Part shown: piece after piece, positions 15,476-16,180 of the stretch
Layout: the number at the start of each line of letters is the position of its first letter
How positions within the stretch are numbered: position 1 is the first letter of the stretch
Assembly (NCBI GenBank): GCA_012797775.1
Contig: JAAZOM010000024.1
Location: 1-46,018 of the forward strand
DNA: 46,018 nucleotides
Origin: Candidatus Kuenenbacteria bacterium
GTDB lineage: Bacteria; Patescibacteriota; Patescibacteriia; UBA2196; GWA2-42-15
Direction: 5' to 3'
The notes under the pieces: generated by a model
The model's input: only the letters and a program-made list of their open reading frames with translations
Database searches by the model: none
What the model was told of the DNA's origin: nothing
Translations under genes and position numbers: made by a program

Positions 15476-15500
15476 TAAATAATATAAAAAGATAAATAAT

Positions 15501-15526
15501 AAAACAGGAAATATGCTTTCTGTTTT
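15501..15526 (+). terminator. probable terminator after the phosphatidyltransferase gene
   Basis: AAAACAG(G)AAA pairs with TTTCTGTTTT around the loop TATGC, with one bulged G, and is followed by TTTAT. AT-rich and modest, but correctly placed. Confidence 0.6.
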
Positions 15527-15575
15527 TTATTTTGGCTAATATTAGTATTTTTATTTATATTTTTTGTTTTTTCTA

Positions 15576-15604
15576 TTGACAACATTTAATATATGTGCTA
15601 TTAT
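15576..15604 (+). promoter_or_regulatory. strong promoter of structured RNA 1
   Basis: Consensus TTGACA (15576-15581), a 17-base spacer, and TATTAT (15599-15604) preceded by an extended -10 TG (TGC at 15596-15598). Predicted start of transcription near 15611. No protein start follows, only the paired RNA described next. Confidence 0.75.
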
Positions 15605-15610
15605 ATTAAG

Positions 15611-15885
15611 ATTTATAGAATTATTGGAAGAACTTTAAAAATTAATATTTTTAATTAAAACAAGTAATTTGGAGGTTTAGATATTAATTAGTGGTTATTA
15701 ACTCGGTTTCGACTGGGTTTGGCCATTTAGTTAATATTTTTAGTAATAAAGCTTTTGGCTTATATTACACCTTTTATAACCATGCTTAATTATTTCATGG
15801 TTTTAGATCCGCCCAAGCGGCGGGCTTTAACCTCCAAATTACTTTGTTTAATTAATAACCCCTGCCCTTATAAGGCAGGGGTTTT
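15611..15885 (+). ncRNA. unidentified structured non-coding RNA 1
   Basis: About 275 nt between a strong promoter and a strong terminator, with no convincing reading frame. A 27-position closing stem joins 15651-15677 to 15829-15855 with only two central mismatches. Inside are a stem-loop CTCGG-TTTCGA-CTGGG (15702-15717), a long stem GTAATAAAGC (15743-15752) with GCTTATATTAC (15758-15768), AACCATG (15778-15784) with CATGGTT (15796-15802), and CCGCC (15809-15813) with GGCGG (15819-15823). GTGGTTAT (15691-15698) can also pair with ATAACCAT (15776-15783), so alternative folds exist. The segment CGGTTTCGACTGGG recalls the 5' part of tmRNA, but no T-arm or CCA-type end is present. It does not show RNase P or SRP signatures. 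Class unknown. Confidence 0.7.
15857..15885 (+). terminator. intrinsic terminator of structured RNA 1
   Basis: AACCCCTGCC / GGCAGGGGTT, a ten-base-pair stem around CTTATAA, then TTTATATTT. Two bases after the closing stem of the RNA. Confidence 0.9.
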
Positions 15886-15889
15886 ATAT

Positions 15890-15918
15890 TTGCATTTTTT
15901 TATTTTTTTATGTATAAT
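15890..15918 (+). promoter_or_regulatory. promoter of structured RNA 2
   Basis: TTGCAT (15890-15895), 17 bases, TATAAT (15913-15918). Predicted start near 15925. It sits between the terminator of RNA 1 and the next paired element. Confidence 0.65.
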
Positions 15919-15924
15919 GTGATA

Positions 15925-16065
15925 AGTAAAATTTAATATTTTGCACCAAAAGGCTGCCGATTAAAAACGGGCCCAGAAATCTCAAAACTTCCGACCATAC
16001 TCGAAGAAAAAACAAAAAATTTTTGAGCCCTGGCAAAAAAGATCGGCAGCCTTTTGGTTTTGCCA
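15925..16065 (+). ncRNA. unidentified rod-like structured RNA 2
   Basis: A perfect 17-base inverted repeat (15945-15961 with 16042-16058, ACCAAAAGGCTGCCGAT and its complement) closes a 114-nt unit. Inside, nested pairings continue the rod: GCC(C)AG (15971-15976) with CTGGC (16030-16034), CTCAAAA (15981-15987) with TTTTGAG (16021-16027), and an apical CTTC(C)GA / TCGAAG (15988-15994 with 16001-16006). The right arm runs into TTTTGGTTTTGCC, a poor terminator-like end. The shape recalls a small SRP RNA, but the conserved SRP apical motif is absent on both strands. The strand is set by the upstream promoter. It could instead be an unusual leader for hrcA, but a separate hrcA promoter lies downstream. 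Confidence 0.6.
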
Positions 16066-16078
16066 ATATTTTAAGACC

Positions 16079-16106
16079 TTGACACAAATATTTTTAGTGT
16101 TATATT
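16079..16106 (+). promoter_or_regulatory. promoter of the hrcA-dnaK heat-shock operon
   Basis: TTGACA (16079-16084), 16 bases, TATATT (16101-16106) with an extended TG (TGT at 16098-16100). The predicted start near 16112 coincides with the first base of the CIRCE operator. Confidence 0.8.
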
Positions 16107-16111
16107 TATAA

Positions 16112-16138
16112 TTAGCACTCATACTTGACGAGTGCTAA
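16112..16138. promoter_or_regulatory. CIRCE operator (HrcA binding site)
   Basis: Perfect match to the known CIRCE consensus: TTAGCACTC (16112-16120), nine bases, GAGTGCTAA (16130-16138). It overlaps the predicted transcription start, so bound HrcA would block initiation and the operon should be self-regulated and heat-induced. Confidence 0.97.
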
Positions 16139-16180
16139 CCGAAAGTATATAATATTTTTAGGATAATAAACAACCCTGAT

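Follow-up and report, generated by a model that had tools for sequence, protein, structure and literature searches.

A structured RNA gene kept across one ABY1 family

The window (the whole stretch of DNA that was analysed, 46,018 nucleotides) contains a stand-alone structured noncoding RNA gene that has been kept across one family of ABY1 Patescibacteria, in all of the genomes of that family that were sampled. To judge from sequence comparison, this RNA (referred to here as the window RNA) appears to have been built, as a larger RNA confined to that family, around a hairpin domain of a second, class-wide RNA. The family is made up of Kuenenbacteria-like ABY1 Patescibacteria and was represented by six genomes from four genera, the window's own genome (G000) and five others (G001 to G005). 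It is placed in Kuenenbacteria because the class-wide RNA of a Kuenenbacteria record (L194) is identical to that of G001 over the displayed stretch. The parts of the gene and the evidence for each are as follows.

15576 to 15604, plus strand: promoter with an extended −10 TG (TTGACA at 15576-15581, 17-nt spacer, TATTAT at 15599-15604); motif search
15611 to 15886, plus strand: RNA gene, inferred transcript of ~275 nt; fold, family homologues, and covariation
15611 to 15660, plus strand: 5′ leader, variable in length; comparison of six loci
15661 to 15677, plus strand: closing helix P1, 5′ strand, with a nearly invariant inner part, UUUGGAGGUU (the longer repeat starts at 15648); inverted repeat and covariation
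15679 to 15738, plus strand: P2, a long interrupted helix, the putative domain in common with the class-wide ABY1 RNA; covariation and R3 profile (see below)
15700 to 15719, plus strand: P2 apical hairpin, AACUCGGU-UUCG-ACUGGGUU; fold, pattern search, and R3 profile
15741 to 15769, plus strand: P3 hairpin; covariation helices 3 and 4, with two-sided changes in 8 of 10 pairs
15778 to 15802, plus strand: P4 hairpin, AACCAUGC...CAUGGUU, nearly invariant in sequence; covariation helix 5
15808 to 15824, plus strand: P5 hairpin, GC rich, variable in sequence and length; helix 6, with two-sided changes in 4 of 6 pairs
15829 to 15846, plus strand: closing helix P1, 3′ strand, AACCUCCAAAUUACUUUG; inverted repeat and covariation
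15857 to 15883, plus strand: intrinsic terminator of 10 pairs (7 GC), followed by a T-rich run; terminator search

The promoter scored 11 of 12 matches and headed the list of promoters for the region, tied with two sites that precede hrcA, and at all six homologous loci we could read TTGACA-17-TAnnAT preceded by TG. Terminator-like hairpins stand at the equivalent place in the relatives, with a different sequence each time (six loci). Both ends of the transcript are inferred, the start from the promoter and the end from the terminator; no transcript was seen, and there were no RNA-seq data. Since the leader varies from about 45 nt in the window to about 165 nt in four relatives, the conserved unit is the core closed by P1. 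No open frame spans this core, and the homologues have indels. Upstream of the promoter lies a sequence at 15530-15545 (TTTTGGCTAATATTAG), possibly an operator or a terminator remnant; similar, partly palindromic sequences occupy the equivalent place in the relatives, and the counterpart in G004 is nearly fully palindromic.

The RNA (15611-15886) folded at −94.1 kcal/mol, compared with −54.4 ± 4.6 kcal/mol for shuffled sequences (z = −8.7; 0 of 200 shuffles), and removal of the terminator left a z score of −7.3. A 30-nt inverted repeat (15648-15677 with 15829-15858; 90% complementary, about 27 pairs) contains the closing helix P1, which encloses the four inner helices P2 to P5 in a multibranched plan. 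Single-sequence folds of G000, G001, G002, and G004 had this plan in common (z = −8.6 to −9.8 in the relatives), with P4 less clear in the minimum-energy fold of G001. An earlier note on this DNA had described a TTGACA/extended TATTAT promoter, no plausible protein, a 27-position closing stem, at least four internal hairpins, and a ten-pair GC terminator, and all of these features were borne out.

A blastn search of 56 related genomes gave clear copies of the window RNA in G001, G002, and G004. A covariance model made from four sequences of the window RNA (R1, run with default filters in the wider search) found it in all six family genomes, with E-values of 4e-49 to 4e-17; when 381 genomes of the class were sampled, nothing beyond the family matched except G045 and G135, both weakly. 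Neither reading nor R1 revealed a direct homologue ahead of hrcA in the sister family.

In an alignment of the six sequences (A5), 92.5% of the cells pair and 30 of the 67 pairs show two-sided changes, compared with a mean of 12.5 in shuffled controls and at most 12 when pairing partners were slid; the covariation score was 0.471 (shuffled controls, 0.217; slid partners, no more than 0.162). Half of the 26 pairs scored in P2 (13 pairs) had two-sided changes. Because A5 was fitted to the structure of the model, it leans toward that model; both the slid controls and the folds made independently nevertheless point the same way. Compensatory base changes in the window RNA exceed chance, and by this criterion it is a structured noncoding RNA; the lack of such changes among homologues was one of the outcomes that, according to the earlier note, would have refuted its proposal.

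A class-wide hairpin RNA in ABY1

The two weak R1 matches in G045 and G135 both lie a short way downstream of clpP, opposite a VanW-like gene (we named the two genes from a reading of their proteins), and each of the 30 clpP loci retrieved for G135's family has this element, about 105 nt long, at that place. This class-wide RNA is a stand-alone unit followed by a terminator, and it has no Rfam match. Its alignment (A4) consists of a long closing helix, a bulge (ACGACAAGCAUGG) facing UUCUU, and an upper hairpin. The bulge, ACGACRAGCAUGG, is one-sided and invariant, apart from an A-to-G change in some lineages.

A model of this RNA (R2) located it in 250 of the 286 ABY1 (Patescibacteria) genomes searched, mostly as a single copy. 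In a 315-genome sample of the phylum, all 23 matches fell inside the class and none in the roughly 290 genomes outside it. Across 83 distinct sequences (two rows of the alignment being reverse-strand matches), 94% of the cells pair and two-sided changes affect 24 of 28 pairs, against an average of 20.8 in shuffles; covariation scored 0.737, compared with 0.200 for shuffled sequences. Named carriers are Uhr-, Falkow-, Magasanik-, Buchanan-, Kerfeld-, Komeili-, and Kuenenbacteria, which by established taxonomy we take to belong to the ABY1 class. Matches to the class-wide pattern in other bacteria were a minority and chance-like, and none of three viral matches showed the RNA. In many lineages the RNA sits between clpP and the VanW-like gene, and three Buchananbacteria records (L166, L170, and L212) carry two tandem copies about 220 to 230 bases apart.

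The window's genome has a class-wide copy of its own (G000:C11:45529-45632). No class-wide copy was found in G003 or G005, both of which have the window RNA, a point that weighs against the common partner proposed below.

A hairpin domain that links the two RNAs

Because the window's genome carries its own class-wide copy, so that both RNAs occur in one genome, the window RNA is a gene in its own right; it is not that genome's single-copy orthologue of the class-wide RNA. The two RNAs are alike in having a long closing helix, in being stand-alone units followed by a terminator, and in an upper hairpin with GG/CC in midstem and an apical UCnGGY...RCUnGA. In P2, the corresponding marks (GG/CC in midstem and an apical UCnGGU-loop-ACUnGA) are present in most copies. 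The class-wide RNA is ~105 nt long and unbranched, with an invariant bulge, whereas the window RNA has helices P3 to P5 in addition and lacks ACGACRAGCAUGG; with filters off, R2 had no match at 15660-15848.

Among 381 genomes, the apical P2 pattern GGTTYCGACTRGANNNNNCCW had six occurrences, all of them in the two RNAs: four in the window RNA and two in the class-wide RNA. We also used a profile made from 68 class-wide upper hairpins only (R3, alignment A7), which scores sequence alone. Over 60.6 kb holding the six loci, its five best matches were P2 of G005 (E = 1.8e-5), G002 (3.9e-4), G001 (0.0079), G004 (0.014), and G003 (0.016). P2 of the window (15699-15731) was the best match within the window, weak by itself (E = 0.22). 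With E-values of up to 0.016 as the criterion, the upper hairpin domain of the class-wide RNA is thus met with in five of the six genomes and only weakly in the window. In G000, G001, and G002, the two RNAs also have exact words of 10 to 13 nt in common at the apical loop (0 to 4 of 200 shuffles reach such lengths). The link therefore runs both ways, since the only nonfamily matches of R1 are class-wide RNAs and R3 picks out P2.

A sequence-conserved hairpin common to two stand-alone RNAs is most simply explained by a common partner, and that both RNAs bind one partner seems to us most likely, although it is unproven. The function that we favor, with confidence that stops somewhat short of even and as an inference in the absence of data on partner, expression, or phenotype, is that of a trans-acting RNA whose P2 docks the partner of the class-wide RNA. 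The window RNA would be transcribed and would act in trans as a stable structured RNA, and the common hairpin, with its GG/CC midstem and apical UCnGGY...RCUnGA, would be the docking site for that partner, most likely a protein, which would be the one that binds the class-wide RNA. That would make the window RNA a second, family-specific member of the system, which might be an expanded paralogue or might compete for the partner. Each RNA has a second conserved element, namely the bulge in the class-wide RNA and, in the window RNA, the inner P1 duplex together with P4; this invariant P1 core, along with P4, may serve a separate function of its own.

P2 of the window is weak alone; the case rests on its orthologues. 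UUCG-capped hairpins are common, and part of the likeness could be convergence. Taken to its end, this possibility makes the window RNA genuine, trans-acting, and family specific but unrelated to the class-wide one, the P2 likeness being that of stable UUCG-type hairpins in general. Only one of the five helices is common to the two RNAs, the bulge motif is missing from the window RNA, and G004 has no long exact word in common with its own class-wide copy. Against this, the five best matches of an independent profile coincide exactly with P2 in five genomes, and both nonfamily matches of the strict pattern lie at the corresponding place in the class-wide RNA, which makes up well below 0.1% of the searched sequence. 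We therefore regard wholly convergent hairpins as possible but rather unlikely.

Comparison with known RNA families

Run over the whole window with gathering scores as cutoffs, cmscan matched only tRNA-Tyr. When Rfam 15 was searched at E-values of up to 10 on 15500-16180, all matches were far below the curated cutoffs and none was to an RNase P model. The low-E matches were rejected: they were mostly on the minus strand and tracked AT-rich sequence and the terminator hairpin (rli40 reached 26.5 bits, against a cutoff of 100). The plus-strand RNA had no credible Rfam match, and the five homologous loci were likewise without a relevant one. We also discarded a phage origin, there being no match in phage records. 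Nothing relevant on structured RNAs of the Candidate Phyla Radiation (CPR) or ABY1 turned up in the openly licensed literature. There is thus strong comparative support for a new RNA family, one that fits none of those tested, in Rfam 15 or in the openly licensed literature; a description that is unpublished or available by subscription only is not excluded. The earlier note had seen no RNase P, 6S, SRP, or full tmRNA hallmarks, had named a significant Rfam hit as a possible refutation, and had suggested a new CPR RNA class. The first observation stands, no such hit appeared, and the suggestion is supported with two corrections: there is no functional tie to hrcA, and the likeness to tmRNA is accidental.

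The likeness to the 5′ region of tmRNA (RF00023) that the earlier note had proposed comes down to the hairpin GGUUUCGACU, a sequence that the genome's real tmRNA lacks at its 5′ end; the string in the window RNA that was likened to tmRNA is UUCGACU. The window RNA has no RF00023 match at the gathering score, and no acceptor stem, T arm, CCA end, or tag frame is visible in it. ARAGORN found only tRNA-Tyr in the window; because it also misses the genome's real tmRNA, the Rfam result carries more weight. A tmRNA is present in 37 of 37 relatives, and the copy in the window's genome lies on another contig (G000:C5:24981-25378), where it scores 82 bits in Rfam and goes unrecognized by ARAGORN. Since the real tmRNA sits elsewhere, we ruled out a tmRNA fragment or relative.

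Among the features of 6S RNA (RF00013) are a long closing stem and a stand-alone transcription unit, and the window RNA has both. It differs in being multibranched, with five helices and no central bubble between two stems, in having no Rfam match, and in being confined to one family. To bacterial SRP RNA (RF00169) it bears no specific likeness: it lacks a GNRA-capped domain IV, has no match, and is family restricted. RF00169 matched nothing in the window RNA or anywhere in the window's genome, nor in 12 ABY1 genomes or 380 Patescibacteria (E up to 0.001), whereas 11 of 14 controls matched.

A divergent RNase P RNA, 6S RNA, SRP RNA, or tmRNA, or a lineage-specific substitute of the 6S or SRP kind, has to be considered all the same, since the silence of RF00169 in 380 Patescibacteria raises the possibility of unrecognized RNAs, and CPR RNase P RNAs can be so divergent that lowered cutoffs are needed (PMC8172020). 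Such RNAs would be expected in all relatives, however, and the window RNA is limited to one family; relaxed cutoffs on 15500-16180 gave no Rfam match, and tmRNA is accounted for elsewhere in the genome. We consider a housekeeping identity for the window RNA improbable.

Genomic neighborhood and hrcA

The window RNA always lies 3′ of a DUF4012 gene, with or without a CDP-alcohol phosphatidyltransferase gene. The earlier note had proposed collecting homologues upstream of hrcA or elsewhere in related genomes. In G000, G001, G002, and G005 hrcA does follow, but it does not adjoin the RNA in G003, where the next gene is a sugar nucleotidyltransferase-like open reading frame and hrcA is on another contig. 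The arrangement in those four genomes is what speaks for a cis-acting leader or attenuator of the downstream hrcA-grpE-hsp20-dnaK operon. Yet the RNA stops at a strong terminator ~300 nt short of hrcA, which has promoter-like sites and a CIRCE operator of its own (16112-16138, TTAGCACTC-N9-GAGTGCTAA, read from the sequence). The earlier note had also reported an alternative pairing, of 15690-15701 with 15852-15863, but this antiterminator-like pairing requires the terminator sequence of G000 and is not conserved, the terminators of the relatives lacking it. The separation in G003 and the operator at hrcA make a leader function very unlikely.

Between the RNA gene and hrcA lies an inverted-repeat element (15945-16058) with 17-bp perfect arms, ACCAAAAGGCTGCCGAT, and a z score of −6.5 as RNA; it is found near the equivalent place in G001 and G002 and is not repeated elsewhere in the window.

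Weakest of all is the idea of an antisense regulator of the class-wide RNA, in which the P4 strand CCAUGCUU would pair with AAGCAUGG of the bulge: eight bases are complementary to the common bulge form (seven in G000 and G002 with their own copies), but words of such length are expected by chance (116 to 132 of 200 shuffles reach them) and cofolding gains nothing over separate folding, so that the idea is scarcely tenable.

A possible ABY1-specific RNA system

Returning to the favored reading, of a trans-acting RNA that docks the partner of the class-wide RNA through P2, we can tentatively extend it to an RNA system specific to ABY1, an extension that we think possible but doubtful. A near-universal bulged hairpin RNA and one family's larger branched RNA would have a hairpin domain in common and would depend on one conserved partner, and the system might replace a housekeeping RNA (SRP or 6S, for example) that standard models miss. 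That an unrecognized RNA may carry a housekeeping role is left open by the absence of RF00169 and is not demonstrated by it. Structured RNAs that are near universal within a class and restricted to it are rare and usually do core work. The pair described here offers two RNA families open to experiment, in organisms whose cell biology has so far been learned almost entirely from genomes, and suggests that the Candidate Phyla Radiation is not fully covered by the standard RNA libraries.
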